Shown here one piece after another: positions 3,001 to 58,279 of a stretch of 64,000 nucleotides of DNA. Each line of letters starts with the position of its first letter. Position 1 is the first letter of the stretch. The stretch is taken from assembly GCF_032854445.1 (NCBI RefSeq), contig NC_088295.1, positions 25,161,385-25,225,384 on the forward strand. The letters run 5' to 3'. The translations under genes and the position numbers were made by a program. The stretch comes from Liolophura sinensis (taxonomy: Eukaryota; Mollusca; Polyplacophora; Chitonida; Chitonidae). The notes under the pieces are model-generated. The model made no database searches and was not told the origin of the DNA. It saw only the letters and a program-made list of their open reading frames with translations.

Positions 3001-6000
3001 TTTGCATATATATGTATGTACGTCTACACAAGAAAACATGAAGATATGTTAACCAAAAACCCTGGGGGGCGTGTCCAAAGGGGCTTGATGAATAATCTCA
3101 AAACATGGCAATACTGCAGCAGCCAAGGGGTTTGTTGGCAAGTAAGAGATGACCAAGGTTCAACCCCAGCTTCAGCCGTACCTTCAGTAGACTTCAGATT
3201 CTCAACATTCCTGGTGAGATTCCTGCTGAACATTCCTGGTGAACATTCCTGGTAAGAGCTACCTTTTTTCAGAGATCACGATCAGGAGGATGTACTTGCT
3301 GATCTAATAGTAAAACTGCAATTCTTCAACCTTTTCACCAGTTTGCAAAGTGTTTATTCAAGTATATTCAGAAAACATCGATAAAATTATACTTTTTTGT
3401 GATGCCCTGAAACTGGCCAATCCAACCTATGTAGTTTTGTCTCCAAACTGCATCCAGCTTGCTACAGGCAGACAATGCATGTGATGATCTGATGGTAATG
3501 ATGGTGATGAAAGGGACATTAAACTCCCAAGCAAAATTGTAAGCTTGCCAAGCATAAAGTTCTAATTTTGTCACCATGAACATGTAAGTGCACCTCCAAT
3601 GAACAACCAAAGCCTCTTTCAACGAGATAAGACCAAAAGTATTGCTGACTTGTATTGAGAGCAGAAACAGCAAAATCCTATCAATGTGGTCACATCTTAG
3701 TATTATAATATACAGTTTGAAAAAATAAAAATATTTAGTTTTGAGATCTCGTTCAAATAATATGGTCAACATAAGATATTTTTTAAGTAACAGGGAGATA
3801 GGTGGAGAAACATCTAACTGATAGGTCAGTTTAGGCCAAAATTTAAATGCGTTCCCACTGGGTAGGACACGAACTGCATGCATGATTGTAAAGCTTGTCC
3901 CATTATCACATTCTGTACTCACAGCCTGAGGGGTTTGTACTCTTGAAGGACACATCTATGGGGAAATTCCAAACAAATTGTTGTCTTTCATCAGAACTCT
4001 TCTTTGTCATTTGAGACATCCCTTCTTCTAAACCCTTCAAGTGAAAGTAATGATATGTTACATGTATGGGAAATCATGACAAAAAAACCAGTAAAAGCAT
4101 GTGAATGGATTATTGAAAAAAAAAACTAACAAACAAAAACACACACACACACACACAAGTGCAACACATACAAAAAAAAACAATATCAAAATCTAATCTC
4201 TACACTTCTGCATTAATGGAATCACCATCAGGAAAATTACAGTGCAGTATATCAAATTTAATAAGATGTATTTGGTCTTAGGTAGACATGCTAGACTGTG
4301 TGGTTCTTGCTTCTGTTTATCTGTCACTGTTAGTCTAATGCTTAATGCCCTAGGTTAAGATGTTACATGTCATATATGTCCTACATGTGCACTAGTACAA
4401 CACACAGCATGTTTACGGGAGGAAGGAGAAGAGAAATTAGACCTTAGACTTTGGAGGAAATAACTGCCCCTTGATGGGACATTAAACTTTCATGGTTAAA
4501 GGACATCCATGAACTACAATGTACATTATATTATTAAAATTATATGTACATTGAAACATTTCTTACAGAACCGAACTACAGGAACATGTAACATGAATAT
4601 AACTACTAATGAAGGCTGGGGTCTTGTAGGATGTACATGCACAGTGGGTCTAACTGAAGTATTTGCCTATAATAATATGTGACATCAACAGACATCTACA
4701 TGTATCCCTGATGTGCCACTGAATTCAAGCAGAAATACATGTAAAGTATTAACTGATTTTTCTGAACAAACTCCAAATTTCTAGTAACTTTTTTCATAAA
4801 TGACATCCTGGCGCCAAAAAAAACTAATTTATGAAGTTTTCTGAAAGTCGGAACTGACATCCAATCGTACTTACAGCATTTGATGAAACCTTGATAAGAA
4901 GCAAAAAAAAATTTTGGTTTCAGGCAAGTTTTAGCTTTAGCTTTAGGTTATTTTTGTTTAATGTTCATCCATATGACCGTAAATGTAATCTGGACAACAT
5001 GTATTTTGTAATAAAAAGGTGACAAATACTTCAGAGAAATTGCATAGCAACAGACACTTACAGACGTGATGACCCAGTCGGGGCCATATGTGAAGCAATA
5101 CCGACAGTAAATGTCATCAAACTCAGGAAACTGAAAACAAAACAAAAGACAGATTTTAAAACCCGAAAACAGCAGTGTTCTTAAGGATTACTGATAATGT
5201 TTACATTATAAATGCTGTTGGCAACTAAATGACTACATAGACAATTAATGCAAATGCTTATGATTGTCTTTCAATATTTTTGAGCTTATATCCCACGCAA
5301 TGTTAAAGACTTGGTGCAGTGTTACTAATTTATACTTTGTTATTTTATACATGTTCACTCCATCAGCAAATAACTGTTCATATTTACACGTCTTTATTTG
5401 TCTCATTTGATGTTTAAGAGCATACTCTGAAAGACTTTGTCAGTCATGATTTATAAATGGAGGAGTGAGTCTCACAAAGGCAGCTCCTGTACTTAAATGT
5501 ACACCAATTAATAATACAGGTTGCCAAAATGAGAAAGAAATGTGAGTGCTTGGGGTTTAACGTCGTACTTAACAATTTTTCAACCATATAACGATGAAGG
5601 AATCATTAGAGTGCATGTAATGTGCCTCCTTGTTGCAGGACGGATTTCCACCGCTCTTTTATCCAGTGCTGCTTCACTGAGTCGCTTTACCGAAGGCTAG
5701 TAAGCTGCTCCGCCCAAGGCAATATACAGATGCGGGTCAACCAATCATTGCACTATCCCCTTCATGCTGAATGCCAAGCGAGGAAGTTACAACTTGCTCT
5801 TTTATGGTCTTAGGTGTGACTCGACCCAGGATTGACCCTGGATCTACCACTCCCGAAGCAGGCGCTCTACTATCTGTCCTATCCGGGCCGGTATATAAGT
5901 GGAAGGAAACGGAGCGTGCAGAATAAACACTGCATGAAGATGATACATTGCAAATGAAATTAGTGTGATCATGTACATGTACAAGCCCATTTTATCATCG

Positions 6001-9000
6001 GTGTATTACATTGTACTCTTACATGAATATTTCACTTACATGATGCCTGCCAGCATTACGATAGGAGGAAAACAGGCAGGGCTCAGAAGAAACTAACAAC
6101 ATTCTAGAGGTTCCTAGTAGACTTTCCCACATATGACCAGATAGGAAGCCAGCATGACTAAGATGGACCGGTGGTCTGAACTGACAGTGACTGATTCGGT
6201 GAAAGGTTCCCGAGTCATTGTGCTACGTTAGCACGTTGACCACTCTGTCACAAAGGCTGTCCCTTTCATTATACATGTACAACAATTAATAATACAGGTT
6301 GTCAAAAAAGAAGACAGAAATGAAAGCACATGTATGATTATAAAATAAACAAGAGAATCTCACTCAGCCATGAGACAGATCAGGTGACAAGTTGACATTA
6401 ATCTCAGCATCTGGTATCACCAGCATGTGCAACCCTGTACTTTTTGGGAGAGCACATTTCCATAACAACATTTTCAATAGCAAGATTAAGGAAATCCAAT
6501 GTTTGATTACTGATACTGTACCACCAGGCCATAAGCATCCCTGAACAATGTTGATTAATAGACAAAGGGAGTTAATAATAAAAGCTGCATATGAAAAACT
6601 ACAGACACTGTACTCTACACGTTTATAAGAGGCATATTCTATTAGCACAGGTGTTCCTGATAGCAATCACTTATATAGTGTGTTCGACATGTCAGTGACC
6701 AGAGCAGAAACATATGCTCTCAAAACAGTTATTCAACTCTGTAATTAAATACTTTCCTTCACCGAACAGAAACTCTTCCAACTACTTGCATCCAAGTCAA
6801 ACTCCACAGATGAAATATCACTGCTAGCAACAGTGAGCTTAAATAGCAACGGTACATGTGAATGGTACATTGTAAATGTCAACAAGCGCGCTCATGTAAT
6901 GCAAAGTAGTTCCAGCGTTAATATAGTCAAATAATGTACCTGACTTTCACCAATGGCCTTTATGAAATTTCGGAAACTAACCATATCATGCAGCATGCAC
7001 ATGCATTCACATCCAAAAGACTACAACACCCACACTATGTTATCGTATACATAAATATTACCATGGCATCACAAGCCAACCTGTGACAAGTGCGCACATT
7101 ACATGTAGCAAATAGGGTCATGGTGTACATGTAAATACATCTGATAATGGGAGACAACTGTGAAAAAAGGGGAAACTTTTCAGCCAGATCAAAACCAATA
7201 AGAAAATCTACATACGTTAATTTACATGTAGTAGCACACTGTCCCAACATAAAAACTATTATAGCTATGCAATAATTGGTATTTATAATACACACAAAAT
7301 GAATACCCACTATTACAAACACAAATCAAACTGTGACAAAGAAATTATTGTGCCCTTCATAACTAAATGTTTTGTCACAATGTCTGTATCAGTAACTGAT
7401 GTTGGTATTGATAGCAGCAATGTTTACCGAGTGGCTGTGTAAGAAGAACTGCTCAGCCAAAGAGGAATATAAAGTGAAACAAGACCTATATTCTACCAGC
7501 ATCATGAGCCCGCTTTCCAGCTGCTGCTGTGTTGCACGAGTTCTTACATTATGTGAAACAATTTACTTCAAATCAAGAATCAGTCAAACAGGGTGGCAAA
7601 ACTTGAAAGTAAATTATATACCATATTCTGTACAAAAGAACAGAAGTTGGCTGAATGCCGATGCTAGATTTAAGTCAACTTTATGCAACTGGAAGGAGTT
7701 AATATGAAAGAATGTCCCTTTAACAGGACTAGACCTGTCTTATGATAAACATATACGTGTTCATGTATGTAATAGACAATTATGTCTATGTTCCATAAAA
7801 TTAGGCACACAATGTTATGATATCATTGCATTCATTGCTTCTATTGCTGAAACCATTTTCCTCATTTTCTCATCTTTATTCAAACAATTTCAATCTCTTT
7901 ATCCATTGAATTTACTGTAAATGTGTCACGTTTCTTCCTTTTATATCTTAATTGTTCGCACTATGTAAAACAGGTGAGTTTTACAATTAACTTCCTAAAA
8001 TTTGTATTGATTTGTCTTCCTTGTTATATCCCAAAACATCCTGCACACAGAAATATATGATGTCTTCAGGCTGTCACAAGGTATGTGTACACATGGCAGC
8101 TTGGTGTGGTAAAAAGAGACTGAATTCCTATAGGGCATTTCAGTAAATGCCAGTAGATATGGAAAGTCTTAACTGCCTTTCAGAGAAAAAGAAATTGTTC
8201 AATACAGATTCACCAAAACTTTAGGGTAGCCTATCATGTTATCACATATCAAGCAGTGATTTGCCTAAAGGGAGGTTGAAACTAAATGTAAATGAACATG
8301 GGTCTGCAGATTATTCATATTTCCACATTACTGTGTCTAAATTGGTTGCAAATTGCCTATATCTGCTATACATGTAAATCATACAGCAGCCATGCCTGGA
8401 AGAGAAACCAATGCATTCTACATTACAGCCACATGAAGCCACTGAGTTAAAATGCTACATGGTGAATATAACTGTACATATATGATACCATGATTTTGTT
8501 TGGGAAATGACAAGTTATCAAAGAGCAGTTATTGGCACCTGTATTTCAATTTACTGTCTGCCATGAATACGCTGTCCAGCTCAATAAAATATGTTGCTTA
8601 AGTGGATGTGCTCTCTCACACAGGTCGTCAAGTACAAATCATGTATTTTGTTGAGATTACAGTTTAGTTTGCTTTTTGTTTTGTTTTGCAAAAACTGAAT
8701 TTTAATTCGCTTTATACAGTACATGTAGATGTTTTCAAGATGTTAGCAGGATATATACAGACTGAGTCATAACATTTGGGAAGACAGACTTTCAAGGTTC
8801 TGAAAGATCCAAAATCTTTTTGATTGTGACCATTAACCCTGTTTACATGTTGCATGAAGCAGATCAGCTATTCAGTGCAAATGATGTTTTTCCTGATATT
8901 CACACGAGGACTGGACCATTACAAAATATGACAAAGATTTCTACCATATACATGTACATGTATGCACATCATTTATGTCCTGTATATACTACATGCATGT

Positions 9001-12000
9001 ACAAATGGCCATTTTTGTCCTCAAGTTCTAATCAGATGACTGAAATCTCAGAGAATGCTGCCTAAATACACAGGTATGCAAATTTCTGCAAACTTTTTGC
9101 AAGATCTGAAATCATGGGCTTTAAATTTTTATTTAAGTGTTAATCAAGCTTTCTTCTTCATGTGGTATTTTGGCTACAGATTATAGTAAGAGATTAAGCA
9201 TTTTAGTACAAAAATCTTAAATTTTCAAAACCACACATCACCTTTAAAGACAGCTATAAATGAAGTTTATAAACACTGCTTCCTGAATCTGGTACTAATA
9301 TATCTCAAACATTTTACTTCCGTCGATAAAAATATAATTATAAACTTATCATGGAAGCAGTTTGAAATCTTACAGTCTTAAAGACGACCCTGGCAAATTA
9401 TCTTCTTTCATAAAGAAAACAAATTATTTGTCAAAAACAGATTTAGCATGTGAAGCCAATCTGTTACAAACAAAACCAAGTAATATGCTTCTACTAAATA
9501 ACAATGCTCTGATGGTTGTCTTTATCATGAGAGGTGAACTATGAGGCCATCAGTATAAATATGCTTGTTGGGGGTAACCCCAGGGACAATGCAAAGAACA
9601 GCCCTACTCTACAGTTTTTATTAGGCTTTCGGTGGATTATCTTTTTTTTTGTGAGTCAATGCTACTTTATTTAAAATCTCTATCGTTTCCAGTAGCCAAG
9701 ATAAAAAAAAAAAATTTCTACCAACCTACCCTATTTTTTCTGATAGGGTTCGCCCACCTACAACGTAGAATTTCTTAAGGATGGCCAGGAAAGCTAGCAC
9801 CAGCTGAGTTATGACACAATTACTGTTCTACCATAACATGAAATTTACAGGTTAAGCACACAGAAAGATCATGTCAAAGCAGTGAATGTCAGGAGTTAGC
9901 GGGCTTATGCAGGCACACACACATCTGACGACTTTACTATTAAGGTATCCCTTAAGAAACCAGACCTGGGAATTATCACGGTTCGTTCACCAAGGGCTTA
10001 CAAAGGCTTCTTGTCTGTCACCAAAATGACCAGAAGCCCGGCATTTTTGTTTGGCTGGAAGACTTATGGGGGACAAAAATAGAACAGGTGTCCTCTGCAA
10101 GAAGCAATTATTCCAGACTGTCTGACTGTATTTGTACCATGTTCATAGCCAGTGCTTATAGGTACACAAGGTCAAGGCATTAATAATCCAGAAAACCATG
10201 GTACATGTAGCTCAGTTGACATTCCTCTCTCTGGTCTGTCTCTGGTGTTTCAACCAAAGACCAGTGCGGAACCAATGACGTGAATGAAGAGCAAAGTTCA
10301 AATGTAGCTCAGGCACTTCTGGTAATAAAGCCTTCCATAGCCCTGCCTTACACTTGACAAAGTTCCTAATTGTTCTGTATGCTTTATGCTGCTCTTAGGA
10401 TTCAGGACAACCTGAGCCATGTACTTGCACATGTAAAGTCACTTAATATACACCCACACACCTACAGCTGGACAATGCATACTCAAATAATACCAGAGGA
10501 ATACTACCAGAGGTTTTACACTTTACAATGATGTCATAACTGTCACCAATTTAGTCCTCTTTACTTCATACAGGTTACTGATATAAGAGTCCCATTGTCG
10601 CACCAAAGGTGCATTAAACATGTTAAAAGGTAATTAAGCCAGACTTAACTCTTAATACCAACATCCAGCTAAGACAAAAGGAATCAGGCTTATCAATCCA
10701 GAGAAAACTTTATATCAGGTTTTTAATCTATAGACTATAATTATTGACTAACTGGGCAATGAAGGTCACTATATAAACACTAGCCTCACCAGGCTTGCAC
10801 CCACACGCAAAGAATACATTTAAATAAACAGGTGGCTCCTAAAAAACAGGCACTCACAACTCCATATACTGGGAAGCCTTTCCTTCCTAAAGTAAGTTAG
10901 ACTAAATCTTTGTTGTCCATTGTTTGTTCCTGCCTTTGCAATCAGTACTTGCTGGTAAACTGGTTACATACTGGTAGTACTCATATACATGTATTACAAG
11001 AAAGTAAACAAGGTCAAATCCCACTGGTCAACCTGTGGTGTATTTTTAAAACAACAAATGCAATTGTCACATGTATACAATCTGCATCTGAAATTTCGGG
11101 CTTGGTATGGATGACACAACAAACACAAGTATGGTTCACTGAGGTTTATTCTGCAATTGTTTTGAGCCAGATGAGGTTAAAAAAAACAGCATTTACAACT
11201 CTAATGTCATCATAATGCGTTTCTAATGTCATCGAAAATCTCTCAAAAATGATGCTAGAAACAAGAGGATCTGGGAAACTTGGGTGTAACTCAGGAATGG
11301 TTCTTTGGTAATTGTGAACTTCATAATTCCATATACTTACAGTGTAAATTTTAAGTTTGACAAGTTTTTCTAAAGAACTATATTCCTAAATTATGCGCAT
11401 CCAAAACAAAATCTGTTGAATTGAGAACATGTGATTATGGCCATCTTTCAACATCTTTCAAACAGTGAAATTTTGTCAGCACGACACACTGTCATCAAAT
11501 TTAAGTTTCATTCTTTAGCTTTCCGTTTACAAATATACCATTAAAATAAATAAATGCTTCACATAAATATCCCAGTTCTGGCGATTTTGTTCTCCTGGTA
11601 GAGCTAAAATTTTGTGTGGTCCATGCTATAAACATTTAATTCCAAAAACACTGGACTGGTCTGTCAATAATCACCATGTTCTGAGGAAAAAAGCACTTTA
11701 TTTTAACTATCAAACATCTGAGAAAGACACAATTTTCTTCTACAGCCTGCCATGCACATACATTCTATGTGTTTGTACACGATGTTTAGTACCATGTACA
11801 ATGTAGGCCTTTAATTACATACATGTATTATAGACAGGTATGTACTTTTTCAATTTCATTATAAGGTTCTTTGCTTATATGGTGCTGATATGCTGTCCCA
11901 AGTTAACAGCTCTAACACTTCAGTGTATGACGTGTGTGGCTGATGGTTGTTGTCACATGTTATTACCTCTGGCAGGTGTAGCACCATGTAAATGGCCTAG

Positions 12001-24296: not shown

Positions 24297-26380
24297 GCTG
24301 CAGATATAAGTTTTAATTTATATAACAAATAACAGATTATAAAATTGTTGTTTGCCTACAGGGGTTTGCAAGGAGTTAAATTAGAAGCAATTGGAAGAGG
24401 TTAATTTATACCATGGATAATACATGAAAGAAGATTGAAGAGTACAGCGAACGCAATAACGAAATAATCCAGATCAATCCAATCATTTCCTTCTATATTA
24501 ATACTTTATTAAAATCCCCATTACATATGGACACCACAAGCAATAAATCTGCTATCCATTATGTAAGTTAACAATCTGACTACAAAATATACCCCAAACT
24601 TGAATATATACAAGAATTGTTTCCCCCAATATGCACGTGTATGGAATCATACCAGTAATCAGGTTATTTAGTCAAAGTGTGCATTCAACTTACAGAAGCA
24701 GGAAAACATTATTTATACAAGAACTGATTGGTGCCAGTAGTCTAAATGATCTTCCACTACACATTATTTGCTCGATGGTTTCTAAACTGCCAGGGAGACA
24801 GCAGTGGGTAACAACATATTCCCAAGGAAATACCAATATGCATAATCAATTGTCGAAAAAACGCACATCTCCTTCGTTAATTGCATGTATTATTTAGACA
24901 GTTTTCAACTTAAGACGTTGGATTGCTACAAAGATTTGAAAAGCACTACATTCCCTCAAAATCCGGCACTCCTCCTAGTCTTGCATCCACATGTATTTTC
25001 AACTGATGGAAATGGCATATATTTCATTATTCATGGCACACAAAATCATTAATAGGAATTTGGTGAAATGTAGTCACATGAATATGTGCTAAGCAAATTA
25101 ACTTATCAAGCAATCAGGGTATATCTTAACATATAAACCCAATCATTACATGCAGTAGTCATTAATCACAATGACCATAATTGTGCATGTCAGAGCTGAA
25201 CAATTACAACATTTGTAAGAAAAGAACCTTTTCAAATCTCCAAGGCACTAAACTGATGTCCCTGGTATCTCAAACATGTCAAATTGAATTTCTTCTTTGT
25301 TCACAAAAAAATTTACTACAAGATTTATCATTTTTCAGAGAGAGATTTTTATAACTAAATTCTTTGGCTTTGGTAAGAAAACAATTAAAGTGTTATCTTC
25401 ATGATTACATACATGAATAGCATCAAGTAAATTCTAACTGTTTACTGCCACAACAGATGAATACAAGCTGACAGTTAATGTGGCCAGAAATAAAAGCAGT
25501 GCTACAAAATGTATATCTTCATCGAAGTGGTGAAATGTGATAACAGGAAAGTTAACAGTGTGAAAGAGGCCGAACACAATTACTAGAATTCATGCACAAA
25601 CAACAAGGTCTGAAGTTGGTCATCATAATGTTTTCTGCTGACTGATTTTCATGATATCAACATATTAGGAATCTTTAGAACTTTCGGTAAAATATAGAAA
25701 TGGAAGATCATCCTTAAGTAAAAGATATGTCTTTTAATCAGATAATGCAAAGGCAAACTGGCTAATGCTACTGCTAATAGTCGCTAAAAATACACTAAAT
25801 ACACATCTGCTGATTTTCAGACGAAGACAAACCATTTAGCACATGGGTAATTTCTAGAACAGTTGAAATTGTATTTGATCTACAGGGAATGAGATTCAAA
25901 TTTCTTTATATTAAATACATTTCTCTGTACAAATAGGTGATCCCCAACACTGATGGAACAAAATGTAGAAATAGTTCACAGAATTGAATCTGTCCATGTA
26001 GTTAACGGCTTCTTCCAATATAATAAAAACACCGGTGGAACATTTCTGTGAGATCTCCATGGCAGATATTTTACACTATAACATCCATGTATAAACAAAG
26101 ACAGTACTGGCTTTTGCAAAGTCTCAGCTGATTTAACTGTATCTGATTTCCAAAGATACCCCACTATAGAAAGCAGTCACATCCAGTACATCTACCTTCA
26201 TATTAGCTATGATTTCAGTACGCGTACACTGTGTACAGTAATTTAATCATTGTACAAACATACTGAATGCAAAACACCATTAAAACATGTATCGCAATCG
26301 ATACTGTTTGTTTTTCTTCAAGTATAGATATACTAAACTATGTACATCAACACATGTTATTGTATTTTGCTCTGTCAGTG
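24297..26380. other. intergenic, nothing recognised
   Basis: AT-rich sequence between the SINE and the 36-bp minisatellite. No exon of the flanking genes and no recognised mobile element. Confidence 0.45.
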
Positions 26381-27275
26381 CGATGATCATCCCAACAAGA
26401 CACATGTATGAAAGTGCGATGATCATCCCAACAAGACACATGTATGAAAGTGCGATGATCATCCCAACAAGACACATCTATGAAAGTGCGATGATCATCC
26501 CAACAAGACACATCTATGAAAGTGCGATGATCATCCCAACAAGATACATGTATGAACATGCGATGATCATCCCAACAAGACACATGTATGAATATGCGAT
26601 GATCATCCCAACAAGACACATGTATGAACGTGCGATGATCATCCCAACAAGACACATGTATGAACGTGCGATGATCATCCCAACAAGACACATGTATGAA
26701 CATGCGATGATCATCCCAACAAGACACATGTATGAACATGCGATGATCATCCCAACAAGACACATGTATGAACATGCGATGATCATCCCAACAAGACACA
26801 TGTATGAACGTGCGATGATCATCCCAACAAGACACATGTATGAACGTGCGATGATCATCCAACAAGACACATGTATGAACGTGCGATGATCATCCCAACA
26901 AGACACATGTATGAATATGCGATGATCATCCCAACAAGACACATGTATGAACGTGCGATGATCATCCCAACAAGACACATGTATGAATGTGCGATGATCA
27001 TCCCAACAAGACACATGTATGAACATGCGATGATCATCCCAACAAGACACATGTATGAACATGCGATGATCATCCCAACAAGACACATGTATGAACATGC
27101 GATGATCATCCCAACAAGACACATGTATGAAAGTGCGATGATCATCCCAACAAGACACATGTATGAACATGCGATGATCATCCCAACAAGACACATGTAT
27201 GAACATGCGATGATCATCCCAACAAGACACATGTATGAACGTGCGATGATCATCCCAACAAGACACATGTATGAA
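26381..27275. repeat. 36-bp minisatellite, 25 copies
   Basis: Units start CGATGATCATCCC at 26381 and repeat every 36 bases to 27244. The register slips by one base only once, a single C deletion near 26860. The unit contains the 10-bp palindrome GATGATCATC and then AACAAGACACATGTATGAA. The main variation is a three-base site after TATGAA (AGT, CAT, CGT, TAT or TGT). Units 6-11 and 15-20 share nearly the same variant order, indicating a block duplication of about nine units. Because 36 is a multiple of 3, several frames stay open on both strands (up to 250 codons); these are not credible genes. It lies about 1.2 kb beyond the GALK1 stop codon. Confidence 0.97.
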
Positions 27276-28483
27276 CGGCTCTTACTGGGAAATGTATGTA
27301 CAAGTACTGGTAAATTCAGGAAAAGGACCAAAAATTCTGAAGGAGCTAGAGGTTCAGTAAGCATTGGCCATAAAGTAACTTCATAATTAACAAAAACATG
27401 GAAGACAGAGTGTGACAATTTTAAAATACAGTAAGTGTCACACATTTGCTTGAGATTCATAAGCACTGGACTCAATGGTTATACATGTAGTTCAATAAAC
27501 TTGTATATGTGTCTGAGTATGTAACATTTCTACAATAATTTAAAATACCAAATCCAAATATTAAAAAAGTCCATCCTATAACAACCAACGCAGAAATATA
27601 AATTAATATAGCTACGCACTCTTGATGCAACAAAATTAGAATGTAAAATAAATAAAAACATGCCAAACCCCACTCATGAGTGCTCAAGACACAAATCGGT
27701 CTACAAACTATTGTGAAAGCATGCAGTTAAGTTCCAGGTACATGTGAATTGTAACATGATAACATACAATGAAATCCACTTCCTGGATGGAATGTCTACA
27801 AACCTCAGCAAACCCACAACTTATTCAGTTAACAGAATAAATACACAATGAGATACTAGCAGACATTGCTGGCCCTCTGTTATTATCATGGATATGGGGT
27901 ATTATGTTCTACAGCTACATTATACATGTCTAGAAACTGTATCATGCCTAGCGAGAGGAGATTTTACGAGTTCATACACCTATGTATACGCACATCAAGA
28001 CTTCAGTGAAATTAATTATTATGTACTATTGTGAGAATATCCACAATGTCAAACCTGCCTGTTATGCCTGAATCTCATATGATCACATTTCTCCTAAATC
28101 ATGGTAAAGAAAATTCATAAAATACACTTTTTTCTGACAAAATATTCTCAAATTGTTGGTGCATAATACCAATAACAGATCTTTTCAGCCAGGTTTCAAA
28201 TCTTAGCAATACCTAATATCTGTAATGGTTTTCAAATCTGCTCTAAGGCCGGTAAATGTATGTATTCAACGACACATTTATGTGTTCCCTTTAACCTACC
28301 GGGGTAGTTAAGTTTTCACGGGACCTGGCACATCCAGAACTCTGGCTACATCATCAATGACTATAAACATGGTCGATCAATATCTTATCTGCAACTTACT
28401 TGGATTCAGGTTTTTTCAGAATGACCAATAGCTAAAAATTATTGAAAATATGTCTGACATTGTTCCACCTATCAGGAATCACT

Positions 28484-49105: not shown

Positions 49106-49228
49106 TTAAGCCCCGATAATGGCTGACAGAAGTTTCTTGTAGTCTCCGCTTGTCTCGCTTTGTACACGGCCCATCAGGGTCTTCCCATGCTTGTGCTGGT
49201 ACACCTCCTTAATGTTCTGAAGGTCAAT
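49106..49228 (-). CDS. annexin last exon
   Basis: It encodes [20 protein letters not shown], then [20 protein letters not shown] and TAA at 49108-49106. The [11 protein letters not shown] segment is the standard C-terminal end of annexin repeat 4. The acceptor is GATTTCAG. Confidence 0.97.
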   Translation of the reverse strand: MDLQNIKEVYQHKHGKTLMGRVQSETSGDYKKLLSAIIGA

Positions 49229-52200
49229 CTGAAATCAAACCCAGGTGACTGATCACTTCATGATGAGATTGTGGGACATTAACAGTATAATGTGAAAATG
49301 GTAATCAAAATTCTATATTCGACAGTGAATGTTCCATACTGTCATAATGATTAACTGGACAAATATTATGGAATACAATGGGTCTGCCAATGCAAGAATA
49401 GAATTCTAAATATAAATAATTATACATTTTCCATAGCAAGTTATCCCAGCATCCCAGAGAGTCCATAAAAACATGGCTTTCTTCAACACCGAATATAAGT
49501 ACTTTTAATAGTCCATATGTGTACTCGAGAAAAATGTTACCACAATGGTATCAACATAAACATGTAATTTATCTTTATATGGTTTCCCTGTGTGGTCACA
49601 TGAAACACTAACACTACAGGTATAAAGAACACTGACCTATTTTAGATCTAGTCACATGAAACACTATCACAACAGGTATAAATATCTCTGACCTACCTCA
49701 GATGTGGTCAGATGAAACACTAGGTATAAAGGTATAAAGACCTATCTTAGATCTAGTCACATGAAACACTAACACTACAGGTATAAATATCTCTGCCCTA
49801 CCTCAGATGTGGTCAGATGAAACACTAACACTTCAGATATAAAGAACACTGACCTGTCTTAGATCTAGTCACATGAAACACTAATACTATAGGCATAAAG
49901 AATACTGACCTGTCTTAGATCTAGTCACATGAAACACTAACACTACAGGCAAAAAGAACACTGACCTGTCTTAGATAAAGTCACATGAAACACTAACACT
50001 ACAGGCATAAAGAACACTGACCTGTCTTAGATCTGGTAACATAAAACACTAACACTACAGGTATAAAGGACACTGACCTACCTCAGGTGTGGTCAGATGA
50101 AACACTAACACTACAGGTATAAAGAACACTGACCTGTCTTAGATCTAGTCACATGAAACACTAACAGTACAGGCATAAAGAACACTGACCTACTTCAGGT
50201 GTGGTCAGATGAAACACTAACACTACAGGTATAAAGAACACTGACCTACCTGAGATCTGGTAACATAAAACACTAACACTACAGGTATAAAAAAACTCTG
50301 ACCTACCTCAGATCTAGTTACCACAATCCTAATCAGTGCGGAATCTTTGGTGCCGAGACCCTTCATGGCATTATGCAGTTTGTCAGCAAAATACTCTGGT
50401 CTGTTCCTAGCACACTGAACTGTAAACATATAAAGGCAAATAAATAACTTAATCATTTAACGCCACCCCCCCCCCCCCCCCCACTCCCAACCCCCTCAAT
50501 CATTTGTTTTCCCTTCTGTCATTTATATACTGGATATATAAAATGACAAGTTTCAAACACAAGAGAATTAGGTCTAAAATATTGCTCTATCAAAAATAAC
50601 CAGAAAGTCCTGCAATATGAACATTTCTCAAATACACGTACCTCAACCATGTTAAGCAGAAGACTACCGCTGTGTATAAAGTAACTACTACATTCAAACA
50701 GTACCACTCACCTAAGGCCTTGAAAGCATCCTCAACACTTCCTGAGAACTCGCTACCCACTGACTGAAGGATGTCCTTTCCAGCAATCTGAACAACGAAC
50801 ATACACATATTCAAGCTACACAGTCACACGAAGCAAAATTCAAAACTGATTTGATTTCAATCCATGGAGTTGAAGTCACGGAAAAGTCATAGACAGATGA
50901 ATGAGAATTAATGTTGACCACAGTAGCCATGCTGGATCATGTAATGCAGCAGAAGACAACACCAACCAACGTATTAACGTCACTACCAGAGTTTGAAAGA
51001 AATTTTAATATATCACATTCACAGCATGGATTGGTCATACACAGGTGAATGATGTTAAGATAACTGATGGCAACCATCTAAGATTACAGAATGCAGTTAA
51101 AAACCATCCATCATCTGAGCAAGGACAAGGCAGTACTCAGGTTTGGATGCAGAGTGTCTTGAAGTGCTTTATACATATCACGTTCCCAAAGCAGGTGGAT
51201 CATGTGTTCACACAGCAGGTGGATCATGTATTCACAGAGCAGGTGGATCATGGGTTCACTAACTAAGCAGGTGGATCATGCGTTCACAAAGCAGGTTAAT
51301 CATATAGAAGGACAGACAGAAGGACAGCAGCATTTCCAAGTCTCCCTTACACTTTCATTGTGAGGGGCAATAAGCATTAGATTTTGTTTTCTCTAATAAT
51401 ATGTTTCAATCACATCAAGCAAGATTATCATTATGAAGATTAGGACACTGTTATAGGAAACAGAAGCAGAAATTTTAGAAAAAGTGAATTTCAGTTAATG
51501 AATTGCTTTAGCTTTATATATATCTTGTCTATATCCTGACTGAGGATGCTGCCTCCATCACACCCTCTCCTTGACAATGCCTACATGCATAAAATATTTT
51601 ATCACATTTGAAAGTACACTTGTCAAGGGTTTCTCCATGATATCTTGGAAGAGAAACATCAGGGCCCGGTTTCAGGAAACTTCTTAGGTTTTTTTGCTTA
51701 TAACGCAAGTCTGTTTCACTTCAGCAACATGCAGTGTTTGACTTAAGCTTTTAGAGAAATACCCTCTGTTCTACTGTCTCTAGTTTTTGCTTGTTGCTTT
51801 TCAACCCAAAAACTACAGACATTAGAAATTTCGTGTCATACAGGGCCCAGAACCAAAGATTGTAAATCTTGCTGTAATTACAACCTGCAGTAACAAAAGA
51901 CTTCATGTTCCTTTGAGTGGCTTCCTCTCCGACTTCACATGGAAGGGTCTTCCAGCAACCTGTGTGTTTCCTCTCACCATAATGCTGGCTGCCATTGTGG
52001 CATGTAAGTGAAATATTCTTGAGTATGGTGTGAAACATCAATCAAATAAATGAATAAATCATGTTCCTTTAAGTATTGGTGAAAAGGTAGCACTGGATCA
52101 CGGTCACAGTTTGCAATCATGCAATCATCCAGAATTATGATACTGAAGATAATGGTATCTTCTCACCTTGGAATACTCATCAAAGGTTGCCCTGAGCTGG

Positions 52201-55200: not shown

Positions 55201-55514
55201 AAGTCTTGGATAAGGTCCTGAAAGAAGAAGAAATCATGAAATTGGACCCAATGACCAGATCCAAAATTATCATGAAACGTACAGCAATGTGCACATCTAC
55301 ATGTAAATGTATGTATCACATTACACTGAACCCTCTCTCAAAAGACATTTACAAGAAAAGAGGTCTGGCAGATATATACCTTTAGAGGTTTAAAAGACAT
55401 TTACGTACAAAGATTTGATAGATATATACATATAGAGGTTTGACAGATATATATGTATAAAAGGTTGACAGATTTCTATACAGGGTTGACAGATATATAC
55501 TTAGAGGTTTGATA

Positions 55515-55546
<32 letters not shown>

Positions 55547-58279
55547 CAAGACTGACAGACATTTGCATACAGAGGTTTGATAGATGTACATGTATACAAG
55601 ACTGACAGATATATACATATAGAGATTTGACAGATATATATGTGTCGAGGCTTGAAAGATGGATATGTATACAAAACTGACAAATACATTCCAATAGAGG
55701 TTTTGACAGATGTATATGTATACAAGATTGACAGAAATACTTATGGAGGTTTGACAGATATTCATATAGAGGTCTGAGACAAGATAAAACTCTTCAGTGA
55801 CATCAACTGCCAATTTCTAGTGAAATAAATACATGTATCCATGTACTTACTTTCCCATACATTGTCTTAAACATCTGAAGAATTTGTTGACGTTGCTGGT
55901 TTGTCCTACGACTAATCACATCAATAATGGCTTTCTCATCAGTGCCTGCAATTGTAAGTATAAGACGTGAAAGCTCTACGTAGCAGAGCGTGTAACTCTC
56001 CATACACGATATTCTACACTATGTTCTAATTTCTGTAAGGAACATTCCTGTTCCAACAGCAAGAAAGTCTGATAACATAGTTAAAATGTACTCATAATAT
56101 CAACCACTTAACTTTTGACTGAAATTAACACATCGAGATACAGATGTGCATTTGTAAAAGTTAAAAGAGTATTATCTTGATAAACTGACCTAACTTTAAA
56201 CATTACGTTTTGACAAGAACATTCTCCTGATGCTCATCATCAACCCTGCCCACCAATCCACTAAATAAACTTACATGGTGCGTGCTTTAAGTACATATAA
56301 ATGCCAATTTGACACTGAATGCATCAATACAAGAAGATAACATCAGGCCAATAAGGATGGGAAGTTCTGTATAAACCCACCAAGCCCTTTCATTGCTTTG
56401 CGGAGAATTTCTGCATCTTTCTCGGGATAGAACGGTTTGGCTGGGACAATAGTTGGTTTTAAGACCTCAGCTGTGCCATAGATCTTCATCTTACTCAGGT
56501 CCTGTGTAACCCCAGCCACACCTCCAGCCCCTGGAGCACCTGCACCCTGTGGGTGACCAATGGAAAACTCCATAAAAACAAATTCACCACATTAGATTTT
56601 AATTAAAACTACTGTCCATTCAATCTCACACTGGACACTGAAAAGGTTTCATTAAGAAAAGACTTACTCCCTAACACAAGATAATCATTTTTCACATCTG
56701 TTCCATGACAATGTTCTAAGTTTCCAAATGGAGAATACATAAAATTACCAACAATACAGATCTTTGAACAACGCTACAATTCACTTCGCTGGCATCTAAA
56801 AGTATTTTACCCAAGAATGTATGTTTCACTTAAACATGTACTTTACAGAACATTATACAATATTTGCTATTTACTTCAGTGGTGTCTAATTATATTTTAC
56901 TTGAAAATATATGATTCATTTGTATGTCAGCTGTCTACATGGAAGCATCTGAGCAGACTCCCTCCTGAAGGTAGATGAAAAATGTACACAAGTAAAGTCA
57001 CAACATGTAACCTTCCTGATCTGCAGGGAACACTCTTTAATGTACTTGGCCATATTATCCTTGTAGATACTTACATGTTTTATAAGGATTTCTACAATAA
57101 CCTTCGGTACTCATCGAGCATTAAGTCCAAAAATAGTACAAAATTAATGAATACATGTTGATGGTGCCCTATGTTAGTAGCACTGACATTCACAAAAACA
57201 TGACCGGTGTCTAGAACACACTCTATGTACATATAAAACCTGTGTTTTTATTCCGCTACAATTCTGACATTCTACTCACCACAGAGGGGTATGCAGTTGG
57301 TTGAGTGCCTCCGTAACCTACAGGGTGGGACAAGAGTACATGCATTTCATAGAGGTAGCACCGTTCTCACAACCTGAAAATTTGTTAATTCTAAAATGAC
57401 AATTATACTGAAAAAGATATGAAAATTGTTTATTTTTGGCATTTAAAAAGACGTTAAAAAGTCACAGTCCGGACAGGTTCTACCTGATAACTTTATCTGG
57501 CTCTGACATACATGTCAGAAAAGTTATCTCTGGATTGGAGAATAGACTACATAAATGGAGACCTCAGAGCTGAAACAGTTCCACAAAGTTCCCACAAGTA
57601 AAAACGATGTTATGTTTACATTCATCTCAGCATAATCCATGCCACGCTAATTTTAACTCTTTTTTTTTAATAAAATAATGATCAGAAAGCCTAAGATGAA
57701 AACAAGGAACATCATACTTTATGACATAAAATGTCCAGACAGGACAAAATAAAAAGATGGTTCGCCTGTTTAACACAAAATAAAATTGGTGTCACGTCAC
57801 AAGCCTCTGACAGACAAAATCAATAGTCTCTTTTTTTTTTACACCAGGATCTTAGAATATTAGTTCAGTCTTATCAGACAAAATGATCAAGACCTGGTTC
57901 ACCAAAACCAGAGTCTAAGATTACTGCAACTATCACTGCAAAAATATCTACAGATATATGTGTCTTTGTGGAACAGATCCAAGCTTAATTCATAGACACA
58001 GCCAGGTCTATGCAACCAATGTGTGGTTGAACATGTTCAAGTTTCATGTAAACAAGAGATTACCTGCTTGTTGCTGACCATACGCTGGTTGCTGTCCATA
58101 ACCAGGTGCCCCTGCTGTAGGTCCATACCCTGGCTGTCCAGGAGGTGCCCCATAGCCAGGCTGTGTGGGTGGTACCCCATAGCCAGGCTGGGCAGGGTAA
58201 CCAGGAGTCCCTGCTTCGGGACCATACGGCTGAGGAGCATAGGTAGCAGGGGCATTAGCTGAGTAGGCTGCTCCACCTG
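49106..58279 (-). CDS. Annexin, ANXA7/ANXA11-like, eleven exons (first exon not found)
   Basis: Annexins bind acidic phospholipid membranes in a Ca2+-dependent way. Long-tailed ANXA7/11 types act in vesicle traffic and condensate/RNA-granule tethering. Exons (minus) are 58279-58064, 57317-57280, 56546-56381, 55945-55851, 55217-55104, 53697-53607, 52954-52875, 52379-52167, 50787-50712, 50419-50307 and 49228-49106. Together they give 440 residues and TAA. All phases agree and every intron is GT-AG. About 100 residues rich in G, Y, P and Q (PGYG units) precede four annexin repeats. Type II Ca2+ loops are visible in repeat 1 (MKGLGTDE), repeat 3 (KKIGTDES) and repeat 4 (MKGLGTKD). Repeat 2 has SGVGTKES, with Ser in place of the usual Lys. 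The start-codon exon lies upstream of 58279 and I could not identify it. Confidence 0.95.
49590..50306. repeat. 56-bp intronic tandem array containing copies of the exon 3' end and splice donor
   Basis: Twelve units are marked by GACCT/GCCCT at 49634, 49690, 49739, 49795, 49851, 49907, 49963, 50019, 50075, 50131, 50187 and 50243; spacing is 56 bases except one shortened unit. The next step (57 bases) lands on the real exon donor at 50300-50306. On the transcript strand, units read like the exon end AGATCTGAG then GTAGGTCAG. GT is kept at the equivalent donor site in the units at 49690, 49795, 50075, 50187 and 50243. The others read AAG-ACAGGTC or AAG-ATAGGTC. Two unit subtypes partly alternate. 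Confidence 0.92.
50307..50419 (-). CDS. annexin exon, repeat 4
   Basis: It encodes [20 protein letters not shown], then [18 protein letters not shown], ending in phase 0 before GTAGGTCAG. Its last ~16 bases and the donor recur in a 56-bp intronic tandem array immediately downstream. A run of 17 G (transcript strand) lies about 47-63 bases upstream of the acceptor. Confidence 0.96.
50466..50482. repeat. C17 homopolymer (G17 in the annexin pre-mRNA)
   Basis: Seventeen C in a row on plus, flanked by more C-rich sequence (ACTCCCAACCCCC). In the annexin transcript this is a long G run lying 47-63 bases upstream of the repeat-4 exon acceptor. Confidence 0.95.
50712..50787 (-). CDS. annexin exon, repeat 3 end
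   Basis: It encodes [20 protein letters not shown], then AFKAL plus one base. The acceptor is GTTGTTCAG and the donor GTGAGTGG. Confidence 0.96.
51191..51305. repeat. 24-bp tandem repeat, five copies
   Basis: GCAGGTGGATCATG starts at 51191, 51215, 51239 and 51267, with a variant at 51291. The period is 24 bases with one 4-base insertion. It lies in an annexin intron; the plus-strand octapeptide frame QVDHVFT. is an artefact of a multiple-of-3 period. Confidence 0.9.
51918..52060 (+). mobile_element. SINE family B, opposite orientation
   Basis: This is the reverse complement of the other family B copies: CTTCCTCTCCGACTTCACATGG, CATAATGCTGGCTGCCATTG, AAGTGAAATATTCTTGAGTA, ending ATCAATCAAATAAATGAATAAA. 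The tail is at the right, so transcription would run on plus. The tRNA-like head is missing. It lies in an annexin intron, antisense to the gene. Confidence 0.8.
52167..52379 (-). CDS. annexin exon, repeat 3
   Basis: It encodes 71 residues: the inter-repeat linker [17 protein letters not shown], then [19 protein letters not shown] and a helix ending FDEYSK. The acceptor is CTTGTGACAG and the donor GTGAGAAG. Confidence 0.97.
52875..52954 (-). CDS. annexin exon, repeat 2 end
   Basis: It encodes [18 protein letters not shown], then KRLLVSALQ. The DTSGHF segment is the usual acidic-cap loop. The acceptor is TTTTTGCAG and the donor GTATGTC. Confidence 0.96.
53045..53200 (-). mobile_element. SINE family B with internal deletion
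   Basis: TTTATTTATTTTATTAATATTTTA, then GTACTCAAGAATATTTCATG, jumping to CCACGGAAACCCATGACTGT and CCAGCATAAGCCGGGCTT. The GGCGGCCAGCATTATGG core is deleted. It lies in an annexin intron. Confidence 0.75.
53607..53697 (-). CDS. annexin exon, repeat 2
   Basis: It encodes [20 protein letters not shown], then [10 protein letters not shown] plus one base. The acceptor is TGTACACAG and the donor GTAAGAC. Confidence 0.96.
55104..55217 (-). CDS. annexin exon, repeat 1 end / repeat 2 start
   Basis: It encodes [20 protein letters not shown], then [18 protein letters not shown]. The SGDLEE acidic residue completes Ca2+ site 1. The donor is GTCAGT. Confidence 0.95.
55366..55775. repeat. AT-rich ~30-bp degenerate tandem repeat
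   Basis: Irregular units of AGAGGTTTGACAGATATATA followed by a variable TATA-rich spacer, about 13 copies, with a pure TA run near 55521-55546. It lies in an annexin intron; overlapping minus-strand frames rich in Ile/Tyr/Ser are repeat artefacts. Confidence 0.8.
55851..55945 (-). CDS. annexin exon, repeat 1
   Basis: It encodes [20 protein letters not shown], then [12 protein letters not shown]. This completes the KGLGT Ca2+-loop motif and helices B-C of repeat 1. The donor is GTAAGTAC. Confidence 0.96.
56381..56546 (-). CDS. annexin exon, tail-core junction
   Basis: It encodes [20 protein letters not shown], a linker, and the start of repeat 1, [17 protein letters not shown] (plus G). The donor is GTGGGT. 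Confidence 0.95.
57280..57317 (-). CDS. annexin small tail exon
   Basis: A 38-base exon completing Gly and encoding [12 protein letters not shown]. The acceptor is CACCCTGTAG and the donor GTGAGTAG. It keeps phase on both sides and continues the tail composition. Confidence 0.88.
58064..58279 (-). CDS. annexin exon: Gly/Tyr/Pro-rich tail
   Basis: It encodes 71 codons of low-complexity sequence: [17 protein letters not shown], then [19 protein letters not shown] and further [12 protein letters not shown] units. The upstream end has a CAGCAG double acceptor (exon start 58279 or 58276), which would add or drop one residue. The donor is GTAATC. Confidence 0.9.

Follow-up and report, generated by a model that had tools for sequence, protein, structure and literature searches.

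How does an intron come to open with a dozen copies of the exon edge that precedes it, donor included, and what, if anything, do the extra donors do? The question is raised by an annexin gene on the minus strand of a 64,000-nt stretch of a chiton genome (C1:25161385-25225384; this whole stretch is "the window", and positions below are those of the window unless another interval is named). The gene has an N-terminal exon rich in glycine, tyrosine and proline, followed by four annexin repeats: the protein joined from its exon translations matches PF00191 (Pfam) in four stretches with an E value of 3.6e-95. The first exon of repeat 4 (50307-50419, minus strand; 113 nt) ends in ...VVTRSE, in phase 0, at the donor GAG/GTAGGT (50305-50306, minus). 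An intron of 1078 nt separates it (donor at 50306) from the last coding exon (49106-49228, minus), which begins with IDL at 49228 and encodes 40 residues before the stop. Across the 3' end of the repeat-4 exon and into this intron runs a tandem array (49595-50318, minus; TRF: period 56, 13 copies, 81% matches).

The array, its register and its origin

The original prediction held that the intron had copied the end of the exon, with its donor, about twelve times. The copying is real, and the array crosses the exon end at 50307 without a break in register; the copied part of the exon is its last 15 nt, coding V-T-R-S-E (50307-50321, minus), rather than the approximately 16 first proposed. Identity between exon and units stays high over positions -1 to -15, with -13 and -3 as exceptions, and is 0 at -16 to -18. 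Counted from the authentic donor, wrap-around alignment places the unit starts at +0, +57, +113, +169, +225, +281, +337, +393, +449, +505, approximately +560, +610 and +666; by the same alignment nine of the twelve later units are 56 nt long, one is 55, one is 50, and the last, partial unit is 46 nt. The first unit (50250-50306, minus) owes its length of 57 nt, instead of 56, to a single additional T in a T7 run (50289-50295, minus; by direct reading). Ten of the units have a mean identity of 85%, and the units fall into sub-types: GT at the donor position is kept in 4/4 of the LTT type, 1/2 of the TTACC type and 0/6 of the TGACT type, so that its retention tracks sub-type and therefore reflects the descent of the units. 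The predicted RNA structure of 50190-50340 is nothing special (z -0.43).

Could the likeness of exon and array be a matter of chance, or could a dispersed repeat have landed beside the exon? Intronic tandem arrays are common here, and the best single match between the exon end and a unit, 13 of 16, is equalled by 5 of 126,389 other 16-mers of the window. The mean match to all twelve units, 11.67 of 16, is however reached by none of these 126,389 (both strands). A genome search with two units, covering 609,464,459 bases in 632 contigs by a method that passes over the commonest words and scores the top candidates only, gave seven matches, all of them inside 49595-50318; this single candidate region, and a register that agrees exactly with the donor, argue against a dispersed repeat or transposable element. 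Contradicted by the 16-mer control and by the single-locus search, chance and a dispersed repeat alike deserve next to no credence.

Which, then, is the original and which the copy? Six annexin paralogs of the same genome have a phase-0 intron at the same codon (two further annexins, L012 and L017, have no intron at the repeat-4 position). The repeat-4 exon ends in Ser-Glu in all six, and the final Glu is common to all seven exons, that of the window included; in the array its codon has been lost from 8 of the 12 units (7 Lys, 1 Gln). A Glu that is conserved among the paralogs and lost from so many units marks the exon state as ancestral and the array as the copy. No similar array was found in the same-position introns of the six paralogs, one of which, 1798 nt in full length, was compared in part; one of the six bears an unrelated 34-bp repeat. 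An intron born inside a tandem array was considered and rejected, the shared phase-0 intron being present in paralogs that have no such array. These comparisons, and the single locus in the genome, bear out the suggestion of an exon-edge duplication that expanded.

The array is thus probably a minisatellite seeded by tandem duplication of an exon edge, and tolerated since the first donor stayed intact. It would have begun when about 56 bp were duplicated in tandem, 15 nt from the end of the repeat-4 exon and roughly 41 nt from the start of the intron, and would have gone on to expand to approximately 13 units and to diversify into sub-types. Intronic minisatellites are common, and occasionally a duplicated stretch would include a donor and some 10 to 20 exon bases. 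Such a duplication would be tolerable because the upstream original retains an entire exon with a functional donor. The authentic first donor would then do most of the splicing; use of the "decoys" would give mostly truncated or frame-shifted products, and use of the one at +57 a minor isoform longer by 19 residues.

An 11-mer (ATTGTGGTAAC; 49536-49546, minus) lies past the array and is identical to exon bases 50317-50327. It may be the relic of an earlier event, or a coincidence, since 28 of 5000 introns, when shuffled, have an 11-mer in common with the exon. Three more arrays lie within the same gene, at 55359-55777, 51181-51303 and 58123-58190; two are intronic and one is in an exon coding Gly/Tyr/Pro repeats. 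Elsewhere in the window (26378-27277) is a long and highly homogeneous array with a 36-bp unit (TRF: 25 copies, 97% matches).

A ladder of donor-like sites

The array's donors were scored with a PWM built from 41 annexin-gene donors, the window junction excluded. (A technical note: 9 of 50 annexin junctions were dropped in building the matrix, and two more at a rebuild; the edge test described below kept all 50.) The authentic donor scores 10.61, above 78% of the 41. Alignment agrees with the original prediction that five of the twelve later units keep GT (all on the minus strand): at +57 (50248-50249, CAG/GTAGGT, 10.05), +113 (50192-50193, GAA/GTAGGT, 6.94), +225 (50080-50081, GAG/GTAGGT, 10.61), +505 (49800-49801, GAG/GTAGGG, 9.02) and +610 (49695-49696, GAG/GTAGGT, 10.61). 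The nearest of these would lengthen the exon by 57, just as had been claimed, with its GT at 50249 and not at 50243. Since +225 and +610 equal the real donor, and +57 is lower by 0.56 bits, some decoys are predicted from their PWM scores to match the real donor in strength. The earlier note missed a second donor register, AG/GTCAGT or AG/GTCAGA, which lies 4 bases into the units (49635-50302, minus): 11 sites, from 50302 to 49636, scoring 7.73-8.69. Setting the cut-off at 5.93, the lower quartile of real annexin donor scores, the array has 16 donor-like sites in 716 nt; the remainder of the intron has 0.

Is the ladder there for a purpose? It might have been retained for gene regulation, by offering extra U1-binding sites, by unproductive splicing and nonsense-mediated decay, or by shielding the intron from early polyadenylation. 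In favor are the crowding of the sites (the next-highest donor-like count is 8, among 178 stretches of 716 nt on both strands) and the outcome of their use: joined to the last exon, 13 of the 16 would give an extension that contains a stop, and in 11 of the 13 this stop would precede the last junction by 89 nt or more. Against regulation is the distribution of GT, which goes by unit sub-type and shows no graded pattern; other loci, described below, also bear on the matter, and on balance we hold retention for regulation to be very unlikely. Copied acceptors as a source of mini-exons were rejected as well: none of the 81 intron AGs scored beats the real acceptor (7.62), and the best AG within the array reaches 6.0.

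Strong decoys are otherwise nearly absent from the neighborhood of strong donors. The window intron has 3 decoys within 1 bit of its real donor, as against a mean of 0.04 and a maximum of 1 in 47 other introns with donors of at least 9.6 (compared over their first 700 nt, or whole if shorter). A nearly silent ladder accordingly needs an explanation, for which exon definition, transcription order and silencing are the candidates.

What proteins could the ladder specify? Read on from the exon into the array, the frame meets its first stop at 50223-50225 (minus), ending at intron nt 84. Use of +57 would precede it: as originally predicted, the extension adds 19 residues without a stop, keeps frame and phase, and ends in TRSQ much as the exon ends in TRSE, and the open frame then continues into the last exon to the normal C-terminus. 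Use of +113 would shift the frame, again as foreseen, with a stop 29 nt before the junction. An extension of 225 would likewise be divisible by 3; its donor, however, is downstream of the stop ending at 50223, which would lie 141 nt before the junction; +505 and +610 likewise would carry a stop in the extension. Joined to the last exon, 1 of the 16 donor-like sites (+57) would be productive and 2 (+4 and +61) would shift the frame. The suggestion of a repeat 4 of variable length is consequently not supported: with units of 56, which is not divisible by 3, gain or loss of copies would not tune protein length. What the sequence would allow is at most one alternative annexin, longer by 19 residues. 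For the first decoy to keep the frame and also leave it open takes a little luck (roughly, 1 in 8).

Is +57 nevertheless a genuine alternative donor, the gene specifying two annexins, one of them with a 19-residue hydrophobic insert in repeat 4 and possibly tissue-specific? Its open frame and exon-like end, a donor score close to that of the real one, and the fact that Pfam still detects the annexin repeat with the insert in place, in two stretches, are all in keeping with such use; the score is nevertheless 82.6 bits with the insert vs 89.0 without it. The insert would sit between the conserved TRSE and IDL, presumably at the turn that joins helix B to helix C in repeat 4. In the calcium site of that repeat it would stretch the distance between GxGT and the acidic residue from 38 to 57 residues (our count). 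The six paralogs with the same intron have stop-free exon ends and no such insert. The openness of the longer form, moreover, hangs on one T of the T7 run: with six Ts instead of seven at 50289-50295 the frame meets TAG at the ninth codon (by direct reading). The genome paper describes the Liolophura japonica assembly as built from 14X HiFi data, with heterozygosity of 1.24% (PMC11068029). Weighing these points, we regard regular use of +57 as unlikely, and continue to favor a tolerated minisatellite whose first donor does most of the splicing.

Exon-edge arrays elsewhere in the genome

Is this intron one of a kind? For a donor-edge array the 20 nt about the donor (10 of exon, 10 of intron) had to recur in the same intron three times or more, with at least 14 of 20 matching; such arrays were sought in 136 introns, 50 of annexin genes and 86 of housekeeping genes. 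The housekeeping genes were found with human proteins and picked before anything was known of their introns; the copies of HSP70 and HSP90 among them are interrelated. Donor edges in such arrays number 4 of 136, counting that of the window, and acceptor edges 0 of 136, a difference that is suggestive and not significant (Fisher test: one-sided 0.061, two-sided 0.12; leaving out the window, 3 vs 0 of 135, one-sided 0.12). These counts are to be read with the design in mind: thresholds were chosen after the window case was known, shuffles preserve base composition only, the annexin set includes the window as its seed, one annexin locus (L008, on C6) was excluded, and junctions were placed by protein alignment, some by small margins, with the introns of each gene partly recovered. 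The same rule applied at random intron positions is satisfied at 90 of 1632, and at 15 of 330 positions near donors and 8 of 330 near acceptors; intronic arrays are therefore ordinary in this genome. The donor-edge count is no higher than that of the surrounding intron; the one contrast, and a weak one, is that the acceptor edges have none.

The three other arrays are in an EEF2-like gene (48 copies of 37 bp), in PKM (25 copies of 23 bp) and in an annexin paralog, L011 (reverse complement 3325-5072 of G000:C1:512401-518500; 42 to 49 copies by two tests). In the L011 intron the exon end AACAGAGCTATGAAG with its donor AAG/GTAAGC recurs dozens of times at a spacing of 33 bp; 24 sites score at least 8, the real donor included, and 23 of the 24 score above the real donor. 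In the EEF2-like intron GT is kept in 48 of 48 copies, none of which scores 8 or more, the real donor itself reaching only 5.46. Read on from the exon, the frame is closed by a first stop that ends at nt 9 of the intron in L011, 18 in PKM and 45 in the EEF2-like gene, and extensions there would therefore end soon. The annexin +57 site is the only decoy found that is predicted to give an intact longer protein, the outcome of every decoy having been computed for the window alone.

Further cases came from other searches. A locus in the same gene as L011 (L010) is positive in a test with the exon 15-mer (60 matches) and negative in the donor-spanning test; it is not among the four. A looser, first edge test of the annexins placed 6 of 100 edges above every shuffle. 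Three of these belong to the window, L010 and L011; the other three, two at donors with 2 matches and one at an acceptor with 1 match, are not counted as arrays. Seven arrays outside the annexin loci were picked by a search biased toward donor motifs, and all seven are excluded from the 136-intron counts: one starts at a verified exon end, that of raptor (RPTOR; L023:1227-1340, in G000:C1:2110300-2112300), where further copies of the exon end, whose donors score equally, lie at +52 and +104; two are at candidate exons (L022, L024) and four at no recognisable exon (L018-L021). Genome-wide, AGGTAAG triplets number 3086 at match level, vs 1452 for a backward control, a difference not taken as proof because single large arrays dominate both counts and because the AGGTAAG matches listed are plus-strand rows only.

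An annexin array of another kind bears on what these structures need. In L013 (reverse complement 8817-9294 of G000:C1:46063500-46073000) a 59-bp unit covers the last coding bases and the stop codon; about eight units, the coding original included, run on past the stop. Capture of an exon edge therefore needs no splicing. That a like array should exist where splicing has nothing to gain, and that none of the 48 EEF2-like copies is a good donor by score, further weigh against the notion that the window's ladder is kept for regulation. Donor-edge minisatellites, on these observations, are a recurrent class in the chiton genome.

Two observations stand apart from these counts. The VCP gene (L025) has a partial upstream duplicate of one exon, with 111 of 126 bases identical (exon and duplicate: G000:C7:27392698-27392823, 27392923-27393117); the duplicate, which has TTTTTTAA in place of TTTTTTAG at its acceptor, looks dead. 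An HSP70-like match (G000:C1:28756494-28757423) was assigned to an open frame 42,745 aa long, which may be a run of N or masked sequence.

Significance and known systems

One may tentatively entertain a broader proposition, which we think somewhat doubtful as it stands: that a few percent of donor edges are captured by minisatellites while acceptors are spared, a copied donor leaving the first one usable where a copied acceptor would not. If so, the genome would offer many natural tests of how the spliceosome chooses the first in a series of many like donors spaced at 23-57 nt; the annexin would be the case in which the second donor gives a viable longer protein. The choice of a donor among equally good neighbors is an old question, and these loci are ready-made tandem donor series. 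Donor use at them could be read from the RNA-seq of digestive gland, foot, gill, gonad and heart described in the genome paper (PMC11068029). Should the asymmetry of donors and acceptors hold genome-wide, it would provide a measure of differing tolerance to splice-site duplication. For the annexins, one possible isoform longer by 19 residues is flagged, and a decoy-rich intron of this kind may mislead gene annotation.

A limited literature search with few terms turned up neither recurrent donor-edge arrays nor the window annexin; related systems are known. In human segmental-duplication genes, internal tandem repeats at exon-intron boundaries are described as generating alternative splicing patterns; coding exons hold half of the repeats, and those at boundaries act via novel intron formation (PMC2812944). 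The annexin array is like these repeats in being minisatellite-sized and unlike them in that the donor edge of an old intron has been copied into the intron. Introns are also said to arise from tandem arrays (Zhuo et al., PNAS, 2007, to go by the title, which would seem to imply copies of splice sites). The annexin differs in that its intron is older than the array, as its presence in six paralogs indicates.

The closest known case is the minisatellite at an exon's donor in human IFI6 (G1P3, 6-16), reportedly the subject of Turri, Cuin and Porter (Nucleic Acids Res 23:1854, 1995), if the title is a guide. In IFI6, as in the annexin, a tandem array overlaps the 3' end of an exon and repeats its donor. 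The IFI6 repeat is 12 bp long; the 56-bp units of the annexin, in contrast, break the frame and leave one productive decoy only. Two downstream repeat units of IFI6 act as donor sites, and three mRNA species result, according to one account (PMC4526556). For IFI6, then, donor use is reported; the annexin decoys are donor-like sites predicted from sequence and score. That a minisatellite can supply multiple donors is thus already known from IFI6; the recurrence of such arrays at donor edges in the chiton genome is the more novel lead.
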